Origin: Wenyingzhuangia marina
Lineage (GTDB): Bacteria > Bacteroidota > Bacteroidia > Flavobacteriales > Flavobacteriaceae
Length of the DNA stretch: 64,000 nucleotides
Assembly: GCF_900130035.1 (NCBI RefSeq)
Contig: NZ_FQXQ01000002.1
Location: forward strand, 496,001-560,000
Reading direction: 5' to 3'
The notes beneath the pieces are model-generated. The model saw only the letters and a program-made list of their open reading frames with translations, did not search any database and was not told the DNA's origin. The position numbers and the translations under genes were made by a program. Positions 1 to 9,075 of this stretch are shown piece by piece. Each line of letters starts with the position of its first letter. The stretch's first letter is position 1.

Positions 1-1597
1 TATATCTTGAAAACACTCCGGTAAAATCTATAGCATGTACTCCACTCTCTAATTTATAATTCAAGATATTATCCCAAGAATATGACACCGAATTATGATT
101 ATTTACTTGAGCTCTTCTATTTGCAGGATTACCTACAACACTTTTTGAATATAATCCTCTGTACTCTCCATATCTAGTATATTTAATATTTGGAGAAAAT
201 TTTGTGGTAAGGGTTAGTCCCTCTATAGGTTTTACTTGCAAAGCAATATCACCAATATATTGTAAATATTTAGTTTCCCTAGTGATGTTATCTGCCTCAA
301 ACAATGGGTTGGTAACTTGATTTTCTTTTTGAGTTGGAAAAAAACGTAAAGAACCATCGTCATTATATGGACGACCAATAGGCTTTAATCTGTATGAACT
401 TCTAAAACCTTCATAACTTCCTTCATTCTGTATAGCATTGGTAATATGATTACTAACACTTAAATTCAACCACTTAGTCAAATCACTCTTTAAACTACCT
501 CTAACATTGTATCTAGTAAAATCTTCACCTTCTAAAGATCCTTCATCTGTGGTGTAACCCATACCTACAGAATAAACAGTCTTATCTGTACCTCCACTTA
601 AACTAACTGTATGGTTTGTTTGAAATCCTTTTTTCAACATTAAATCTACCCAATCAGTACTTACTCCATCAGCCACATTTTGCATTTCTTCTGCATCTAA
701 CCAATTAGACAAGTTAACATCTCCTCTTCTATAATTAAGGTTTCCAGATGCAAATTGATTCCCTACTACTACATCCTTAAGATACTCTACATACCCAGGA
801 CCATCTTGTACAGAAGGTAAATGATAAGCTTGTTTAAAACCAACATAATTACTATAATCAACTCTTAAAGCCCCTGATTTACCACGCTTAGTTTCAATCA
901 ATACAACTCCATTACTACCTCTAGAACCATAAATAGCAGTTGCAGAAGCATCTTTTAAAATATCCATTCTACTAATATCTGCAGGATTCAAGAATGAAAT
1001 ATCGTCCACAAAAATTCCATCTACAATAAATAATGGGTTCTGACCTGGGGTAAACCCTCCTTGGCTGGCAGTTTCATTATCGTTAATAGTACTTGCTCCA
1101 CGAATACGAATATTAAATCCACCTGAACCTGGTTTATTATTTGTACGCTGAACTACAACCCCAGGAGCTTGTCCTTGTAAAGCAGATATCGCATCCACTT
1201 TATTTGTTTTTTCTATTGACTCAGCATCCATTGAAGCTACAGAACCTGTTAAATCTTTTCTTTTAACAGTACCATAACCAACAATAACTACTTCATCTAA
1301 CTCTGTATTACTTTGTTCTAATTTTACACTTAATTTAGCTTGTCCTGCATAAGCTATTTCTTTAGTTGTGTACCCTACATATGAAACTGCTATAACATCT
1401 CCATTGCTAGCAGTAATTTCAAAGTTACCATCAAAATCTGCTATTGTTCCTTTTGAGGTTCCTTTAATAATGACATTAGCTCCAGGAACTGGAATATCAT
1501 TCGCATCCGTTACAACTCCCGTCACTTTACTTTGTGCCCATGAAGTTGATGAAAAACATAGCACTACGGCTATCATTAAAAGTTTAAGTTTCTCCAT
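1..1597 (-). CDS. SusC/RagA-family TonB-linked outer membrane receptor (partial, C-terminus outside window)
   Basis: Translating the minus strand from the ATG at 1597 gives an open frame of about 532 residues that runs off the left edge. It begins with a signal peptide (MEKLKLLMIAVVLCFSSTSWAQ). A carboxypeptidase-like regulatory domain follows (GVVTDANDIPVPGANV, then GTIADFDGNFEI), then the SusC signature NTELDEVVIVGYG and a TonB plug (LQGQAPGVVV; DILKDASATAIYGSRGSNGV) and the first barrel strands. Known role of the family: import of oligosaccharides with a SusD lipoprotein through the outer membrane, energised by TonB. The SusD partner should lie just beyond the left edge. The gene is divergent from the inositol oxygenase operon and has a direct-repeat operator candidate 110 bp upstream. 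The substrate cannot be read from the sequence. Confidence 0.93.
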   Translation of the reverse strand, partial: MEKLKLLMIAVVLCFSSTSWAQSKVTGVVTDANDIPVPGANVIIKGTSKGTIADFDGNFEITASNGDVIAVSYVGYTTKEIAYAGQAKLSVKLEQSNTELDEVVIVGYGTVKRKDLTGSVASMDAESIEKTNKVDAISALQGQAPGVVVQRTNNKPGSGGFNIRIRGASTINDNETASQGGFTPGQNPLFIVDGIFVDDISFLNPADISRMDILKDASATAIYGSRGSNGVVLIETKRGKSGALRVDYSNYVGFKQAYHLPSVQDGPGYVEYLKDVVVGNQFASGNLNYRRGDVNLSNWLDAEEMQNVADGVSTDWVDLMLKKGFQTNHTVSLSGGTDKTVYSVGMGYTTDEGSLEGEDFTRYNVRGSLKSDLTKWLNLSVSNHITNAIQNEGSYEGFRSSYRLKPIGRPYNDDGSLRFFPTQKENQVTNPLFEADNITRETKYLQYIGDIALQVKPIEGLTLTTKFSPNIKYTRYGEYRGLYSKSVVGNPANRRAQVNNHNSVSYSWDNILNYKLESGVHAIDFTGVFSRY

Positions 1598-1677
1598 TTT
1601 ATTTTGTTTAGTTAATAATTGTTTTACACTTACCATATATTATAATCATCCGATAAATAAATATCGTAAGCATTTGA

Positions 1678-1685
1678 TAAAATTA
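1678..1685 (-). promoter_or_regulatory. Weak -7-like box for susC
   Basis: On the minus strand this reads TAATTTTA, which matches the Bacteroidetes -7 consensus TAnnTTTG except for the last base. It sits 22 bp from operator site 1, and the surrounding TGATAAAATTAG is repeated exactly at 8973-8984 next to operator site 3. No -33 TTG is seen, which fits an activator-dependent promoter. Confidence 0.4.
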
Positions 1686-1706
1686 GCAGAGATTTCTTTT
1701 TTTGAA

Positions 1707-1733
1707 ATGGACATTTTATTCAAAAACATGGAT
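1707..1733 (-). promoter_or_regulatory. Operator candidate site 1 (21-bp-spaced ATGGA direct repeat) upstream of susC
   Basis: The plus strand has ATGGAC at 1707 and ATGGAT at 1728, start-to-start distance 21 bp, with CAAAAAC between them at 1721-1727. Compared with site 2 read on the opposite strand, the 25 bases from GGA to the final GGAT differ at only two positions. The site lies 110 bp upstream of the susC start. Two half-sites on the same DNA face are the usual binding pattern of AraC-type domains, such as the one at the C-terminus of the HTCS at 4636-8667. Confidence 0.6.
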
Positions 1734-1826
1734 AACTAACAATTATTTAATGATTATGATTTTTAGTTACGAAAACCACAAACAAAAAACACTTTCATTA
1801 TTTTATTAATATTTAAAAAACAAAAA

Positions 1827-1853
1827 ATCCATGTTTTTGCATAAAATATCCAT
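1827..1853 (+). promoter_or_regulatory. Operator candidate site 2 upstream of the inositol oxygenase operon
   Basis: On the plus strand ATCCAT occurs at 1827 and 1848, 21 bp apart, with GTTTTTG after the first. This is site 1 in inverted orientation, so in both cases the coding strand of the downstream gene carries TCCAT. A -7-like TTAATTTG lies at 1874-1881, 21 bp downstream. The oxygenase start is 154 bp away. Confidence 0.6.
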
Positions 1854-2006
1854 ATAGAAAATAAGCAACATTCTTAATTTGGATTTCTGTATTTCACTGA
1901 TTCTTAATCAGTAAATCCCAAACTATAATTCTTTACCATACTTTAATACATCAAAGAATTTAGTCATTACTTCAAAAGAAATTATTTAATCCAAACTTTA
2001 TATACA

Positions 2007-2885
2007 ATGAAAAATAAAACAAATAATAGCATCAACAATCCTATGGATAATATTGATGATTGGGAAGAAAACTTAATAGAACGTTACCCAGATCCTGAAA
2101 CACCAGCAAAAGAAAAAGAAGAATTTAGAAATTATGTTGATTCTGAAAGAGTGGATACTGTTAAGGAATTTTACCGCATCAACCACATCAACCAAACGTA
2201 TGATTTTGTATGTAAAAAAGAAGAAGAATTCTTAAAATTTGATAAAAAAGAGATGTCTTTATGGGAAGCTGTTGACTTCTTAAATACTTTAGTTGATGAT
2301 AGTGATCCTGATATTGATTTAGACCAACTTCAACATTTATTACAAACTTCTGAAGCAATTAGAGCTGATGGACATCCGGATTGGTTTGTGTTAACAGGTT
2401 TTTTACATGATATAGGTAAAGTACTTTGTTTGTTTGGAGAACCACAATGGGCAGTAGTAGGTGATACCTTTCCTGTAGGTTGTAAATTTTCTGACAAAAT
2501 TGTTTATCCAGAATTTTTTGAACAAAACCCAGACAGTAAGGATGAAAGATATAATACCAAATATGGTGTATACACTCCTAACTGCGGTTTAGATAATGTA
2601 AAAATGAGCTGGGGACATGATGAATACTTATATCAAATACTAAAAGACTATTTACCAGAACCCGCTTTATATATGATTCGTTATCATTCTTTCTACTCTC
2701 AACATAGAGAAGAAGATTACAATCATTTAATGAATGAAAAAGACCTTGAAATGTTTGAATGGGTGAAAAAATTCAATCCATATGATTTATACACCAAAGC
2801 TCCTGTAAAACCAGATGTAAAAGCTTTAAGACCATATTATGAAGCTTTGGTTTCTAAATACCTACCCGAAGTATTAAAATTTTAA
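2007..2885 (+). CDS. Inositol oxygenase (MIOX)
   Basis: This is a 292-residue diiron enzyme of the HD-domain superfamily that cleaves myo-inositol with O2 to D-glucuronate. All six family iron ligands are visible: H123 (ADGHPDW), H134-D135 (FLHDIGK), H204 (SWGHDEY), H227 (IRYHSFY) and D260 (FNPYDLY). Length matches animal and bacterial MIOX, and there is no signal peptide, so it should act in the cytoplasm. The symporter gene follows after 21 bp, which suggests import and oxidation of a cyclitol. An operator candidate lies 154 bp upstream. Downstream glucuronate genes are not in the window. Confidence 0.95.
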
Positions 2886-2906: not shown

Positions 2907-4478
2907 ATGCTATTTACCTATTTAGGATTTTTTGGATTTACATTATTTGTTATTTTTTATACTACTTATAAACTTAGAAAAGACAAGTTCACTACCTCTA
3001 AAGGTTATTTTTTAGCTGGTAAAAGTTTAACAGGTCCTATTATAGCAGGATCAATGATTTTAACCAATATTTCTACCGAACACTTAATTGGTATGAATGG
3101 TAGTTCTTATAAAAATGGAATTATTGTCATTGCATGGGAAGTAACTTCTGCCATCGCTTTGGTCATTGCCGCCATCTTCTTTATTCCAAAGTTTATTAAA
3201 ATGGGATTAACCACTATTCCAGAATTTTTAGAAAAAAGATTTGATGGAGCCATTAGATCCGTGGTGGCCTTTTTATTAATGTCTTCATTTGTGATTACCC
3301 TTTTACCAATTGTGTTATATTCTGGAGCCATTAACATAGAAAGTGTTTTTGATTTTTCTGTTATTTTTAATATTAGCAAAGAAGAGTCTTTAATATATAC
3401 AGTTTTAGTTATTGGTATTATTGGTTCTTTATACGCCATTTTTGGTGGATTAAAAGCTGTGGCGTATTCTGATTCTTTAAATGGAGTTGGATTGATGCTT
3501 GGTGGATTGTTAATTCCTGTAATTGCATTATTTCAAATTGGTGATGGAGATTTTTTTAGCGGATTAAGTACTGTCTATAATTTTGCACCAGACAAGTTTG
3601 ACATTATCGGTAAACCTGACTCCGTACTTCCTTTTTCTGTCCTATTCACAGGATTAATGATTAATCAGTTATATTTTTGGGGAATGAACCAGGCCATAGT
3701 CCAAAGAGCTTTTGGTGCTAAAAATTTGGTTGAAGCTCAAAAAGGATTGATTTATACAGGGGTTTTAAAACTATTTGTTCCAATTATTATTGTACTTCCT
3801 GGGTTAATTTCTTATTACTATTTTCAAGATAAATATTATGATACTCCAGATTTAATCTACCCTCTTTTAGTTAAAAAAGTATTACCTACCTATTTATATG
3901 GATTTTTTGCTGCGGTTATTTTAGGTGCTGTATTGAGTACTTTTAATAGTGTATTAAATTCTGCTAGTACCATTTTCTGTTTAGACATTTATAAGAAAAA
4001 CATCAATAAAAATGTATCAGATAGCAATTTAGTAAAGTACGGTAAAATATCATCTGTAGTTTTGGCTATTATTGCCATTGCTGTAGCTCCTATGGTTGCT
4101 TATGCTCCTGAAGGATTATATCAGCTACTACAACAATTAAATGGAGTATTTTTTATTCCAATTTCATCTATTATTATTGCAGGAATCTTTTTTAAACAAA
4201 TTAACACAAAAGGAGCCAAAGCTGGTTTATTTTTTGGATTTGTATTCTACATACTAACCACGTTCATTCTTCAGCTTGATATTCATTTTGTTCACTTATG
4301 GGGAATTGAGTTTGTGTTAAACTTTATTATCATGTTTTTAGTTTCTAAATTATTTCCAACAGCTGAAGACCATCCAGAAATGGACAAAGGAACAGAAGAA
4401 AAATCCTGGTCTAAAGTGAATATCGCCGGAATTATTTTAGTATTACTAACCATACTTATATACATATTATTATCGTAA
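2907..4478 (+). CDS. Sodium:solute symporter (SSS family), probable inositol transporter
   Basis: This is a 523-residue protein with the length, 13-14 hydrophobic segments and motifs of the SSS/SLC5 family: an N-terminal membrane anchor, then FFLAGKSL-like YFLAGKSLTGP, NISTEHLIGMNG, YAIFGGLKAVAYSD, and the late GAVLSTFNSVLNSASTIFCLDIYKK. The last is typical of SGLT-type carriers. It should import its solute across the inner membrane with Na+. It begins 21 bp after the inositol oxygenase gene and must share its transcript, so inositol (or an inositol derivative) is the likely cargo. That substrate is an inference from the neighbour, not from the sequence itself. The C-terminus ends with an extra hydrophobic helix. 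Confidence 0.9.
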   Translation: MLFTYLGFFGFTLFVIFYTTYKLRKDKFTTSKGYFLAGKSLTGPIIAGSMILTNISTEHLIGMNGSSYKNGIIVIAWEVTSAIALVIAAIFFIPKFIKMGLTTIPEFLEKRFDGAIRSVVAFLLMSSFVITLLPIVLYSGAINIESVFDFSVIFNISKEESLIYTVLVIGIIGSLYAIFGGLKAVAYSDSLNGVGLMLGGLLIPVIALFQIGDGDFFSGLSTVYNFAPDKFDIIGKPDSVLPFSVLFTGLMINQLYFWGMNQAIVQRAFGAKNLVEAQKGLIYTGVLKLFVPIIIVLPGLISYYYFQDKYYDTPDLIYPLLVKKVLPTYLYGFFAAVILGAVLSTFNSVLNSASTIFCLDIYKKNINKNVSDSNLVKYGKISSVVLAIIAIAVAPMVAYAPEGLYQLLQQLNGVFFIPISSIIIAGIFFKQINTKGAKAGLFFGFVFYILTTFILQLDIHFVHLWGIEFVLNFIIMFLVSKLFPTAEDHPEMDKGTEEKSWSKVNIAGIILVLLTILIYILLS

Positions 4479-4635: not shown

Positions 4636-7600
4636 CTATTTTATTAAAGTACTTGGAGCCACTCCAAACTGTTTTTTAAAACACCTACTAAAATACAAAG
4701 GATCATTAAACCCTACCATATTAGCTACTTCAGAAACATTATAGTTTTTTGTTTGCAATAACTCTGCTGACTTTTTTAAACGAATGGTTCTTATAAACTC
4801 ACTTGGAGACATATCTGTAAGTTGTGTAATTTTTCTATATAATTTAGAAGTACTCATTGCTAATTCCTCACATAAAAACCCCATCGTTAGATTAGGGTTT
4901 GCTATATGTTGTTCAATTAGCTCTTTTATGTTAGAAATCAAATCTATATCTATTTGAGAATGAGCTAATGTAATTACATCACTTTCTACTTCATCTGAAA
5001 AAGTCTTTTTTAAATTAAAATGAATTTTAATAATATTATCTATTCTAGATTTAAGAACAGAAGGATCAAAAGGTTTTACCAAATAATCATCTACCCCTAT
5101 AGAATAACCTTTAATTCTATTTTCATTTTCTGCCAAAGCTGTTAAAAGAATAATGGCCGTATTACTTATATATTCATCTTGCTTTAGTGTCTCCACAAAA
5201 TCAAAACCATTCATTACAGGCATCATAACATCTACCACACATAGGGCTGGTTTTACTTTTTTACATATTGCCAATCCTTCTTTTCCATTTTCTGCTTCAT
5301 AAACCTTGTAATAAGTAGATAGATATTCCACTATATATTTTCTTAACTCTGTATTATCATCTATCACAACTATTTTATGCTTGATCTCTATACTTTTATC
5401 TATTTTTTTTACAGACTTATAAAAAGTATCATCTTGAAGTGGTAGTATAATTTCATGTTTATTTTCTTCTATTATAGCATCAAAAATTTCATTTTCTTGA
5501 TAAGTATCTTTAGTAACAGGTAACTTCACAAAAAACACACTTCCATCATTTGGTATGCTTTTTACTTGAATTTCTCCTTTATGAATTTCTACCAAAGCTT
5601 TTACAAAAGACAAACCAATACCTGTACCCGTAGTATTTTTTTTACTGTTTTCTGCTTGATAAAATCTAGAAAATATTTTTTCTTGACTTCCTAAAGGAAT
5701 TCCAATTCCATCGTCGCTAACTTCAATAATAAGATTTTTTTTATCATCATTTTCATAACCAACAAATAAGTCTACATTTCCATAATGATTGGTAAACTTC
5801 ATGGCATTTGATAATAAATTAAAGAGTATTTTATCGTATTTATCTACATCCAACCAACACGTCTCTACCTCATGATCTATATTTAAATTAAAATGAATAT
5901 CCTTTGATTGAGCATAAACCACAAAAGAATCAAAAACATTTTGAGTAATTTTAGCAACTTCAACTTTTGAAACTTTTAACTTTAACTGTCCTGTTTCTGC
6001 TTTTCTAAAATCCAAAATTTGATTTACTAATCTTAATAATCTATTTGCGTTTAAGTATATTAAATCTACCCTACTCTTGGCATATTCATTTTTAGCATTT
6101 AGTTCTAATAATTGTTTTATAGGTCCTAGAATTAAAGTTAATGGTGTTCTTAATTCGTGAGATATATTAGTAAAAAAACGAAGTTTTTCGTTATTTAATT
6201 TCTCTTCCCTTTCTCTTTTTACTTTCTCGTATAACAATTCTTGTCTTAATTTTATTTGTCTCCTTAAAAAATAAGCCAACAATACTAACACAACAGCTAT
6301 TAAGAACAAACCTTTGTAAGTAAACCAAAAAGAAGGTAAAATTTTAATTTGATATTCTGATGTTTTACTCCAAATACCATCACTATTACTAGATCTTATT
6401 TTAAACACATAATCTTTTGAAAACAAATTGGTGTACTGTACAGTTCTTAAATCACTATTGGTTTCTATCCAATCTTCATCAAAACCTTCTAACATATACT
6501 CAAACTTATTAAGTCTTTGATTGCTATAACAAGGAGTTGAGAATTGAATTGAAAAATTTCTGTTATTATAGTCTAAAACTACATTTTTACCGTAGTTAAT
6601 ATCTTTTTTAAAAGGAACCTGCCCATCAATACGACCTCCAGGAACAATTTCTTTATTCTGAACTTTAAACTCAGTAATAATAGGTTTTGGAGCATAATGA
6701 TTTTCCTTAATAGTATTTGGAGAAAAAGAAATAACACCATACTTACCTCCTATATATATTCTTGAATTATTGTAATTATAAAAACCAACTGAACTAAAAA
6801 TATCCAACCTAGTCCCACTTTTTACATGATAAATATTAATGGTATTTAAATCTGTGTTATACTTACCAATAGTGTTATTATTGATGTTTAACCACAAAGA
6901 ACCATCAACATCTAAAATCATGTCAGTAATCCATTTACCACTTAATTCTCTGGGTTCAGTAATCAATTCAAAATCATCTTTTTCTACAATATATTTTGCC
7001 AAACCAGCTCTGGTAGCTGCCCATACCTGTTTCTTAGAATCAATTAATATATCACTTAAATTATCTTGTGGAATTCCTCCTTTTTTATCAGGATTATATT
7101 GATATATTTTACTTTTTTTACTTGTATATTCATAATGAATCAAGCCTTCTTCAGCTGCAATCCACAAAGTTTCTCCATCTTTTTTAATTCTATTTATTTC
7201 ATAATTTGGGAACAATCTTTCTGTACCTAATTTAACAGACTTCTTTTTGATATCAAACCAAACAATTCCTTCTCCAAAAGAACCAACAAGCATGGTGTTC
7301 TCATCATATTTTAAAAAAGTGGATATGGCAGCATTACGATTTCCTATATCTACAACTTTCGAGGTATTTTTTAAATAATCATAAATTAAAAGTTTTCCAT
7401 TCCACAATCCACAATAGAAAATTTTACCATCAATAGTATAAATACTCGAAATGTCTTCTTTACAACTATACAAAGGCACAAAACTATTTTTATTAGTAAT
7501 AAAAAGTCCATTGTGCCAGGTTGCTAAAATAACATGATTGTCATAAGTTTTAGCAAACCCTCTGTTTCTTGGGATCTGATTTTCAGTATAGAGAGAAATA

Positions 7601-8667
7601 TCTTTATTTAAATGAATTTGATTTTCATATGGATCATACTTATCCAATCCATCTTCTGTTCCAATCCATAAAACTCCTGAGGGATCAAAATAAAGAGCTG
7701 ATATTAAATTATCCACCAAAGAAGTTTCTTCTGTTAAAATAGAATAATGCCAATCAAACTCTCCTTTTACTAAATCTTCTAATTGATTAAAAACTAACAA
7801 ACCCGATAAAGTCCCTAACCAATATTTTCCGTTAGGACTTCGTGCTATAGACAAAAAGTGTGGTCCTATTTTTTCTCTTAATTTTTCGTCTTTTATTTCT
7901 AAAGTTTCAAATACATTTTGAATCTTATTTAGCTTGTACAAACCATTTCTTGTTCCAACAAAAATGTCTGATTTAAAATCCTCATATATAAAATTTATAT
8001 ATGGATTTTTCTTTTTGTTTTTTTTAATTGTAAGAGTATAATGACTAACACTAGTAATTAAACCTTTTGCATCTAAAGAAATTTTAGCTATACCTGCTGT
8101 ATCATAACTTCCTATCCATAAATCTCCATTTTTATCTTCAAAAATTTCTTTTATATAATAATAACTGGGAAGTTTTACTTTTTCAAACTTATTCTCATCA
8201 GGATAATAAATATATAATCCTTTATTTTTTGTACCAACCCAAATTCTTTTATACTTGTCTATATATATAGATCTAATTTCTTTATCAGGAAGACTATTAG
8301 GGTTGTTTTTGTCTGGTAAAAAAGTGGTGAATTTTTGAGTGCTAAGATCTAAAACGGTTAAACCAAATCTAGTACCAATCCAAAGATTATTTAAACTCTC
8401 ATCATATTTCAACACAGTGATGTCATCATTATAAAGTTCTTCTTTGTTTAAAGAAGTACTTAAATAAGATTTAAATTGATATCCATCAAAACGATTAAGT
8501 CCCGAAAAAGTTCCTAACCAAAGAAAACCTTGTTTGTCTTGTACGATATGTCTAACCGAATTTTGTGAAATTCCATCTTTACTATTATAATGCTCAAATT
8601 TTAAACTTTGAGCAAACGACATAAAGTTTGAAATTAAAAAAAAGAGAAAGACTGTTTTTTTTATCAT
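4636..8667 (-). CDS. Hybrid two-component system sensor/regulator (HTCS)
   Basis: This 1343-residue one-protein signalling system is typical of Bacteroidota polysaccharide loci. Order: signal peptide (to about residue 20), periplasmic beta-propeller repeats of the Reg_prop type with recurring WIGT and LWIG blades (about 30-690), Y_Y_Y domain (about 700-775) and one membrane helix (about 783-803). The histidine kinase has H837 in NISHELRTP, an N box near 950 and GTGIGLSF near 1015. The receiver has D1146 in VVDVMMPVMNG, and an AraC-type HTH follows (about 1245-1340, ending GFNDPLYFSRCFKKQFG). It senses a glycan fragment in the periplasm and activates its locus. It is convergent with the inositol genes, and three 21-bp-spaced direct repeats upstream of susC, MIOX and itself are its probable targets. 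Confidence 0.95.
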   Translation of the reverse strand: MIKKTVFLFFLISNFMSFAQSLKFEHYNSKDGISQNSVRHIVQDKQGFLWLGTFSGLNRFDGYQFKSYLSTSLNKEELYNDDITVLKYDESLNNLWIGTRFGLTVLDLSTQKFTTFLPDKNNPNSLPDKEIRSIYIDKYKRIWVGTKNKGLYIYYPDENKFEKVKLPSYYYIKEIFEDKNGDLWIGSYDTAGIAKISLDAKGLITSVSHYTLTIKKNKKKNPYINFIYEDFKSDIFVGTRNGLYKLNKIQNVFETLEIKDEKLREKIGPHFLSIARSPNGKYWLGTLSGLLVFNQLEDLVKGEFDWHYSILTEETSLVDNLISALYFDPSGVLWIGTEDGLDKYDPYENQIHLNKDISLYTENQIPRNRGFAKTYDNHVILATWHNGLFITNKNSFVPLYSCKEDISSIYTIDGKIFYCGLWNGKLLIYDYLKNTSKVVDIGNRNAAISTFLKYDENTMLVGSFGEGIVWFDIKKKSVKLGTERLFPNYEINRIKKDGETLWIAAEEGLIHYEYTSKKSKIYQYNPDKKGGIPQDNLSDILIDSKKQVWAATRAGLAKYIVEKDDFELITEPRELSGKWITDMILDVDGSLWLNINNNTIGKYNTDLNTINIYHVKSGTRLDIFSSVGFYNYNNSRIYIGGKYGVISFSPNTIKENHYAPKPIITEFKVQNKEIVPGGRIDGQVPFKKDINYGKNVVLDYNNRNFSIQFSTPCYSNQRLNKFEYMLEGFDEDWIETNSDLRTVQYTNLFSKDYVFKIRSSNSDGIWSKTSEYQIKILPSFWFTYKGLFLIAVVLVLLAYFLRRQIKLRQELLYEKVKREREEKLNNEKLRFFTNISHELRTPLTLILGPIKQLLELNAKNEYAKSRVDLIYLNANRLLRLVNQILDFRKAETGQLKLKVSKVEVAKITQNVFDSFVVYAQSKDIHFNLNIDHEVETCWLDVDKYDKILFNLLSNAMKFTNHYGNVDLFVGYENDDKKNLIIEVSDDGIGIPLGSQEKIFSRFYQAENSKKNTTGTGIGLSFVKALVEIHKGEIQVKSIPNDGSVFFVKLPVTKDTYQENEIFDAIIEENKHEIILPLQDDTFYKSVKKIDKSIEIKHKIVVIDDNTELRKYIVEYLSTYYKVYEAENGKEGLAICKKVKPALCVVDVMMPVMNGFDFVETLKQDEYISNTAIILLTALAENENRIKGYSIGVDDYLVKPFDPSVLKSRIDNIIKIHFNLKKTFSDEVESDVITLAHSQIDIDLISNIKELIEQHIANPNLTMGFLCEELAMSTSKLYRKITQLTDMSPSEFIRTIRLKKSAELLQTKNYNVSEVANMVGFNDPLYFSRCFKKQFGVAPSTLIK

Positions 8668-9003
8668 AAAAACATTTTATTTTCAAATTAACAAAAGACT
8701 AATTTACATTAAAACATCATTTTAAACTTGTTTATTTCATGTCTTATAAAATGATTATACACAGCTTCTTTTTGTTATAAACCACAATTAATCTTTCGCT
8801 TTTTATAACCTTCTAAAACTCTACATAAATAAGTTTTTTTTCTAAACATCAATCTACATATCAACATAAAAAATAATCACTACAAATACATTAAAAAACT
8901 TTCTTGAAAGATGATATTTGTTGTAGGTACAATATCAATATTTTTTTAGCAATAATGATTACTAACTCCTTCTGATAAAATTAGTCAGAATACTTTTAAA
9001 AAA
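8668..9003. other. Long leader or spacer upstream of the HTCS gene
   Basis: No convincing gene is found here. If the promoter next to site 3 (-7-like box at 8976-8983) drives the HTCS gene, this stretch is an AT-rich 5' untranslated region of roughly 300 nt. The longest minus-strand frame starting with ATG that I checked is only 24 codons and looks non-coding. Confidence 0.4.
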
Positions 9004-9030
9004 ATGGACTGAGACTTCAAAAGTATGGAA
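9004..9030 (-). promoter_or_regulatory. Operator candidate site 3 upstream of the HTCS gene
   Basis: ATGGAC at 9004 and ATGGAA at 9025 are 21 bp apart, and CAAAA falls at the same internal position (base 15 of the site) as in sites 1 and 2. The -7-like TAATTTTA (minus strand, 8976-8983) is 21 bp away, inside TGATAAAATTAG, which is identical to the sequence beside site 1. Orientation relative to the downstream gene is the same as at the other sites. Autoregulation of the HTCS is the simplest reading. Confidence 0.55.
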
Positions 9031-9075
9031 TCATAATCGTAAACAACTGTTTTTAAACAGTTTCTATAGATTCAA

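Follow-up and report, generated by a model that had tools for sequence, protein, structure and literature searches.

The operators of hybrid two-component sensors (HTCSs) in Bacteroides thetaiotaomicron have been predicted to be direct repeats averaging 21 bp (Ravcheev et al. 2013, PMC3878776). They lie before susC operons that adjoin an HTCS gene, and close pairs of HTCS paralogues, such as HTCS_Rgu-1 and -2, have been proposed to share one motif (PMC3878776). The same study describes a heparin regulon, HTCS_Hep (BT4652-63), in which an HTCS controls a PUL for a glycan containing glucosamine and uronic acid. The word inositol is absent from the main text of that paper.

Here, we analyze a 64,000-nucleotide stretch of the Wenyingzhuangia marina genome (the window) in which susC and a divergent gene for myo-inositol oxygenase (MIOX) are separated by two inverted copies of an element of this kind. 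As in B. thetaiotaomicron, the element is a direct repeat of about 21 bp located before a susC operon adjoining an HTCS gene, and the locus carries a pair of HTCS paralogues comparable to HTCS_Rgu-1 and -2; this likeness is one of geometry and arrangement. In contrast to the regulons that the main text of PMC3878776 describes, the putative regulon includes an inositol oxygenase, a PI-PLC and a glucosamine N-acetyltransferase. It would share with HTCS_Hep the control of a PUL for a glucosamine- and uronic acid-containing glycan, but the PUL proteins scanned by Pfam in W. marina comprise no heparin lyase or sulfatase, and GH92, PI-PLC and GH115 are present instead. We think it quite likely that the two copies and a third one serve as activator operators within a single HTCS regulon, whose glycan is most probably the head group of glycosyl-inositol-phosphoceramides (GIPCs). 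Observations of five kinds bear on this reading, namely sequence, conservation, promoter geometry, regulator co-occurrence and gene families.

Organization of the locus

The 5′ part of susC occupies positions 1..1597 of the window (minus strand); the window edge cuts the gene, which encodes 1017 amino acids in all and continues to the left. Read in the adjoining 40 kb, susC is the first of 13 closely spaced genes that encode, in order, SusC, SusD, GH92, GH28, GH28, GH2, GH92, GH89, an acetyltransferase, a PI-PLC, GH115, a phosphoesterase and HTCS2, with which the series ends at C3:468360. The GH2 is of the LacZ type, the acetyltransferase is a NagX/HGSNAT-like membrane glucosamine N-acetyltransferase (with an NCBIfam match below the cut-off), the phosphatase is a calcineurin-like phosphoesterase, and the PI-PLC is of the Ca type (PF16670, E 3.5e-126), its nearest solved structures being 3h4w and 5fyo. 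Divergent from susC, an operon of MIOX (2007..2885, plus strand; PF05153, E 1.4e-112) and a sodium:solute symporter (2907..4478, plus strand; PF00474, NF007790) runs rightwards and is followed by HTCS1 (4636..8667, minus strand). The symporter is presumed to be an inositol importer from its adjacency to MIOX. Among the best 80 of 582 matches, W. gilva is the closest relative with a name, its MIOX being 97% identical.

The first-pass annotation had pointed to one element in two opposite orientations between susC and MIOX, and the two copies, ATGGACATTTTATTCAAAAACATGGAT at 1707-1733 (plus strand) and ATGGATATTTTATGCAAAAACATGGAT at 1827-1853 (minus strand), do agree in all but two of 27 bases. 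Operator 1 (1707..1733, plus strand) reads ATCCATGTTTTTGAATAAAATGTCCAT on the susC coding strand and presumably drives the susC operon leftwards; its counterpart stands before susC in relatives. Operator 2 (1827..1853, minus strand) reads ATCCATGTTTTTGCATAAAATATCCAT on the MIOX coding strand and presumably drives MIOX and the symporter rightwards. The follow-up revealed an additional copy, operator 3 (ATGGACTGAGACTTCAAAAGTATGGAA, 9004..9030, plus strand), which is located 337 bp upstream of HTCS1 and points towards that gene. All three share one orientation relative to their respective downstream genes and carry the direct repeat ATGGA-N16-ATGGA, the half-sites of which recur with a period of 21 bp, in agreement with the earlier description of two helical turns. 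The formula that had been offered for scanning, ATGGAY-N8-TKCAAAA..., is two bases too long and needs a spacer of N6.

Each operator faces a −7-like box, as had been stated for the first two. The box for susC (TAATTTTA, 1678..1685, minus strand) and that for MIOX (TAATTTGG, 1875..1882, plus strand) are found 21 nt beyond operators 1 and 2, respectively, and are weak, each deviating from TAnnTTTG at one position; the box beyond operator 3 (TAATTTTA, 8976..8983, minus strand) is 20 nt away.

The W. gilva counterpart of operator 3 (97% identical over 65 bp) precedes a second series of genes, susC-susD-GH89-acetyltransferase-HTCS1. W. marina has none of the first four of these in the corresponding interval from operator 3 to HTCS1 (window 8667-9066). 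Operator 3 probably now drives HTCS1 alone.

Occurrence of the motif and its distance from the promoter

A degenerate form of the pattern, with up to three mismatches allowed, matched the window twice and did not match any of 100 dinucleotide shuffles. The genome-wide scan that the first-pass annotation had proposed was run with ATGGAYN7KCAAAAN2ATGGAW: the 3.24-Mb genome contains three exact matches, all at this locus, compared to an expectation of 0.0024 derived from the window composition. When up to two mismatches were allowed, the genome gave ten matches and the reversed control seven, so the inexact matches are at background and only the exact ones are informative. Six of the seven inexact matches lie inside stop-free frames of at least 80 codons, but so does operator 1, and coding overlap is therefore no discriminator. 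A non-coding sequence with two mismatches at C5:252657-252683 (L021:1501-1527) has a −7-like box 21 nt downstream and fronts what appears, by eye, to be a GH43 gene; it is a possible distant member of the regulon, but matches of this quality do not exceed background.

An inverted repeat of this kind could in principle arise by chance, as the spacer is AT-rich and the words are short. The shuffles and the composition-based expectation reject this explanation and, together with the site conserved in front of MIOX at 57 of 114 loci, reduce its probability to a negligible level.

TAnnTTTG is the −7 box of Bacteroidetes promoters, and the string occurs alongside the word "promoter" in the Flavobacterium literature. 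We collected 67 distinct sites with at most one mismatch from this and related loci and recorded the position of TAnnTTTG, again with at most one mismatch. For 55 of the 67, the distance from the site to the start of the box is exactly 21 nt, 28 of these boxes being perfect, and the next commonest offset is represented by 16 sites. An activator bound beside the polymerase would be expected to lie at such a fixed distance.

Conservation upstream of MIOX

A search for MIOX in 397 genomes of the family yielded 64 genes in 62 genomes. Of the 63 family genes beyond that of the window, 40 were read with their surroundings in stretches of 20 kb, two of which were shorter (L055-L094). Together with the best 80 of 582 loci confirmed in a wider contig search with a 21-sequence MIOX alignment, and with the home locus, these gave 121 loci, of which 114 were left after removal of seven duplicates. 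A site was counted if it had at most two mismatches and the activating orientation and was located within 3 kb upstream of MIOX.

The operator is present before MIOX in 57 of the 114 non-redundant loci, all of which are PUL-linked wherever the flank is visible, and the reversed pattern is found upstream of MIOX in none of the 114. It occurs in 49 of the 61 loci called PUL-linked by an identity threshold and in eight of the 53 not so called. Six of these eight are Flavobacterium loci with a diverged SusC/GH92 PUL beside MIOX, one is a PUL of Maribacter polysiphoniae (L100), and in the last (L134) the contig ends 462 bp before MIOX. Read at length, the F. glycines and M. polysiphoniae loci each prove to hold a complete PUL comprising HTCS2, phosphatase, GH115 and GH92, to which F. 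glycines adds PI-PLC, GH89 and the acetyltransferase, and the M. polysiphoniae stretch a PI-PLC. In Cyclobacterium, Algoriphagus and others, MIOX adjoins an SSF symporter in most non-PUL loci, as it does here. These pairs differ from that of W. marina in that the operator precedes MIOX in none of the 45 remaining loci outside the PUL class and an HTCS2 orthologue occurs in none of eight genomes tested.

In twelve of the 61 loci called PUL-linked, no site stands before MIOX, which counts against a shared regulon. In four of them (L068, L123, L139, L145), the site is present on the susC side only; in three (L077, L080, L081), the stretches read contain no close relative of HTCS2; and in the remaining five (L059, L073, L107, L108, L130), no site with up to two mismatches precedes MIOX although related PUL genes are present. 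L073 has an exact, correctly placed ATGGA-N16-ATGGA from which the inner element is missing. Also unfavorable is L174, a site-less locus outside the PUL class that nonetheless has SusC beside MIOX.

According to the first-pass annotation, both sites should persist in relatives that keep this gene order. This prediction largely held: both facing sites are present in 14 of the 24 other divergent susC/MIOX loci, the rest having, at up to two mismatches, the susC-side site only (four), the MIOX-side site only (three) or neither (L059, L108, L174).

We also built a weight matrix from 43 distinct sites of the loci under study. Its best score was 9.5 in 480 background windows and, for loci not in the PUL class, 5.0 in the 700 bp preceding MIOX. 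The majority of PUL loci scored 25–39 and some degenerate ones 12–24, and among the 13 PUL loci below 9.5, five have a site further upstream (L056, L058, L100, L102, L103) and eight have none. The site-bearing loci are related to each other, and MIOX loci without a site are further removed from them. The absence of the site therefore also tracks phylogeny, and the counts of sites, HTCS2 and MIOX given here and below are not phylogenetically independent.

Association with HTCS regulators

An orthologue of HTCS2 (E ≤ 1e-250) was found in 40 of the 397 family genomes, with an identity of 52–87% in genomes other than that of W. marina. It is present in all 23 genomes that have a MIOX at least 78% identical, a cut-off chosen, like that of 61% for PI-PLC used below, on seeing the lists, and also in 17 of the 374 that remain. 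None of the eight genomes with a MIOX of 71–77% identity is among the 40 that carry HTCS2. In a second, hand-picked set, the orthologue is present in eight of eight site-bearing genomes (60–69% identical, one match being partial and covering residues 6–1141) and in zero of eight genomes with a site-less MIOX, which give no HTCS2 match above 41% identity.

Seventeen HTCS2 genomes thus have no MIOX of this kind, and in ten of them we read 40 kb around the HTCS gene. All ten HTCS2-type PULs encode SusC, SusD and GH92, and eight contain a site with at most two mismatches, whereas the reversed control gave one match in the ten. The site points towards susC in six (G106, G127, G326, G007, G218, G362); against the association, it points only towards a divergent neighboring gene in two (G002, G179) and is absent from the 40 kb read in the other two (G123, G387). 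A distant MIOX is encoded elsewhere in some of these genomes. As eight of ten MIOX-free HTCS2 PULs keep the site and the 45 non-PUL MIOX loci lack one, the motif follows the regulator, with which it is associated across genera, and we reject the alternative that it is tied to MIOX.

The domains expected within a single HTCS protein (a periplasmic sensor with Reg_prop and Y_Y_Y, then HisKA, HATPase, a receiver and an AraC-type HTH) were identified in HTCS1 by Pfam, which bears out the AraC-type domain previously attributed to it; HTCS2 is assigned solely through its 67% overall identity to HTCS1. The identity of the two proteins rises to 83% in the DNA-binding domain and is complete across the stretch taken for the second recognition helix, and for this reason both HTCS1 and HTCS2 may bind the operator. 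The DNA-binding domains of HTCS2-type proteins are 64–90% identical to that of HTCS2, compared to 33–50% for six other HTCSs. Most Bacteroides HTCSs carry an S/CHIP motif in the receiver (PMC11253607). Inspected by eye, the corresponding positions read SNTA in HTCS1 (window 4636-8667) and SHTA in HTCS2 (L023:12360-16409). A minority of HTCSs also deviate from S/CHIP, so that the two proteins may nonetheless belong to the HTCSs, and their receivers may have weaker self-inhibition.

The element has the features of an HTCS operator: a direct repeat of about 21 bp, a position before the susC operon of an HTCS-encoding PUL, conservation together with an HTCS orthologue (with exceptions) and a fixed distance to the −7 box. 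It is nevertheless conceivable that another regulator binds the operator, or that the operator represses, and that the HTCSs are bystanders, because the operator could be assigned to either of two paralogues and binding of an HTCS to it is a prediction, the receivers deviate from the usual S/CHIP motif, and three loci that encode the HTCS (L130, L107, L073) show no site in front of MIOX at two mismatches. Such an arrangement is improbable in view of the co-occurrence with HTCS2 (23 of 23 genomes, and eight of eight versus zero of eight), the site kept in eight of ten HTCS2 PULs without MIOX, the constant 21-nt offset to the −7 box, and a geometry which, in line with the AraC-type activation previously suggested, agrees with that of the HTCS operators predicted in PMC3878776.

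Predicted substrate of the PUL

GIPCs are described as the predominant glycosphingolipids in plant membranes and consist of ceramide-phosphate-inositol-GlcA followed by mannose or GlcN/GlcNAc, plus Ara, Gal and Fuc (PMC12201980); α-Man-(1-4)-α-GlcA-(1-2)-inositol is a known oligosaccharide (reference title in PMC11496612). The W. marina locus encodes enzyme families for mannose, GlcN(Ac), GlcA and inositol-phosphate, a set that is incomplete in some relatives. We read 18 HTCS2 PULs at length (the home PUL included, and G302, which has no HTCS2 orthologue, left out): 16 contain GH92, 15 a phosphatase, 14 GH115, 13 PI-PLC, nine GH28, seven the N-acetyltransferase and seven GH89. W. gilva is scored in these counts as lacking phosphatase, GH115 and PI-PLC because its stretch ends with the contig; its PI-PLC and HTCS2 are found at the start of another contig. 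Judging from the enzyme families, the substrate is most likely the GIPC head groups of plants or algae. A phospholipase C step on GIPC, predicted here, is also the reaction of the GIPC phospholipase C of Botrytis cinerea, but that enzyme was chosen as a putative fungal sphingomyelinase (PMC11496612), whereas the one considered here is a predicted Ca-type PI-PLC in a bacterial PUL. Several observations fit GIPC less well: the GH89 match is only 35–36% identical in three of the seven PULs, GH28 has no obvious place in GIPC, and G123 and G106 have GH115, GH89 and the N-acetyltransferase with neither MIOX nor PI-PLC in the 40 kb read.

Relatives also encode a fucosidase, GH43, GH51 and a NagB/PIG-L protein. 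The last is encoded just before susC in one relative (L185:8172-10100), and the F. glycines locus has a similar frame after the symporter, hinting at glucosamine in the substrate. In L062:2141-3994, the PI-PLC follows an α/β-hydrolase (BD-FAE-like) domain within one fused protein, and the open frames at PI-PLC in G328 and G340 are similarly long.

The GPI glycan is Man3-GlcN-inositol, sometimes with β-Gal, and is not known to contain GlcA. The same regulon could serve a GPI anchor or a GPI-anchored arabinogalactan protein: two GH92s, the LacZ-type GH2, the N-acetyltransferase, GH89, PI-PLC and the phosphatase are all compatible with it, and arabinogalactan or pectin attached to it could be a target of the GH43, GH51 and GH28 present in relatives. 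This main rival to GIPC is disfavored by GH115, found in 14 of the 18 PULs, and GH89 and the N-acetyltransferase are limited to seven each; we regard it as rather unlikely. Heparan sulfate, considered on account of GH89 and the N-acetyltransferase, is disfavored by PI-PLC, GH92 and GH115.

PI-PLC of at least 61% identity occurs in 16 of the 397 genomes, all of them among the 23 with a MIOX of at least 78%. Weakening this association, seven of the 23 have no PI-PLC at 61% and three genomes without this MIOX have one of 57–60%. In the MIOX-free HTCS2 PUL of G002, fucosidase, sulfatases and rhamnosidase are encoded nearby, and the HTCS2 family of regulators seems to serve other glycans too. In G265, the genes behind the site are SDR-UxuA-MIOX-SSF-UxaC-DctP-DctQ-DctM, with altronate dehydratase further on, and UxuA precedes MIOX in G121 as well; the genes of these two loci would imply a route from inositol via glucuronate to KDG.

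These genes also lend themselves to a reading in which inositol is incidental, that is, the PUL targets a mannose/glucuronate/fucose polysaccharide, and MIOX accompanies it since the two routes converge on glucuronate metabolism, as the presence of UxuA and UxaC within the MIOX series of G265 might indicate. The HTCS2-SusCD-GH92 core occurs without MIOX or PI-PLC in all ten such stretches read, and the one MIOX-free PUL checked by Pfam contains fucosidase and sulfatases. A dispensable role of inositol is at odds with the confinement of PI-PLC of at least 61% to genomes with this MIOX (16 of 16), the phosphatase in 15 of 18 PULs and the symporter adjoining MIOX, and we give this reading as little weight as the GPI one.

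Discussion

Returning to GIPC head groups as the most likely substrate, we infer operator binding, activation, ligand, enzyme activities and substrate as follows. Read on the strand of the gene, each operator consists of two directly repeated TCCAT half-sites, spaced with a period of 21 bp and enclosing a TTTTG element, and lies 20–21 nt upstream of a Bacteroidetes −7 box. A dimer of AraC-type domains of HTCS1, HTCS2 or both would bind one face of the DNA and help the polymerase to start, and a single periplasmic oligosaccharide signal would thereby switch on the susC PUL, MIOX with the symporter, and HTCS1 itself. The products of the susC PUL would take up and strip an inositol-phosphate-linked glycan: GH92 would remove α-Man, GH115 α-GlcA, and the glucosamine N-acetyltransferase with GH89 GlcN/GlcNAc; PI-PLC and the metallophosphatase would free inositol. 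The symporter would import the freed inositol, and MIOX would oxidize it to glucuronate.

That one signal may govern both a SusC importer and the import and oxidation of inositol had been proposed in the first-pass annotation, and the conservation of the sites and the co-occurrence of the regulator support this reading. The further-reaching version, in which a widespread HTCS PUL of the Flavobacteriaceae dismantles plant or algal GIPC head groups completely and passes the inositol ring through MIOX into glucuronate metabolism, is in our estimate evenly balanced between true and false.

In its geometry, the operator is of the known HTCS type. The first-pass annotation knew of no described locus with a link between glycan and inositol, and the best-ranked results from the open-access literature likewise contained none: neither an HTCS that ties inositol catabolism to a glycan PUL, nor a bacterial PUL for GIPC, nor a connection of GIPC or inositol oxygenase with a PUL was among them.

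The operator motif and its 21-nt offset provide a ready search tool for the regulon. If the proposed scheme is true, the locus supplies enzymes, a sensor and an operator whose part in GIPC breakdown can be tested, and it gives bacteria a pathway for one of the major lipids of plant membranes. It would also give inositol oxygenase a use in plant- and alga-associated Bacteroidota.
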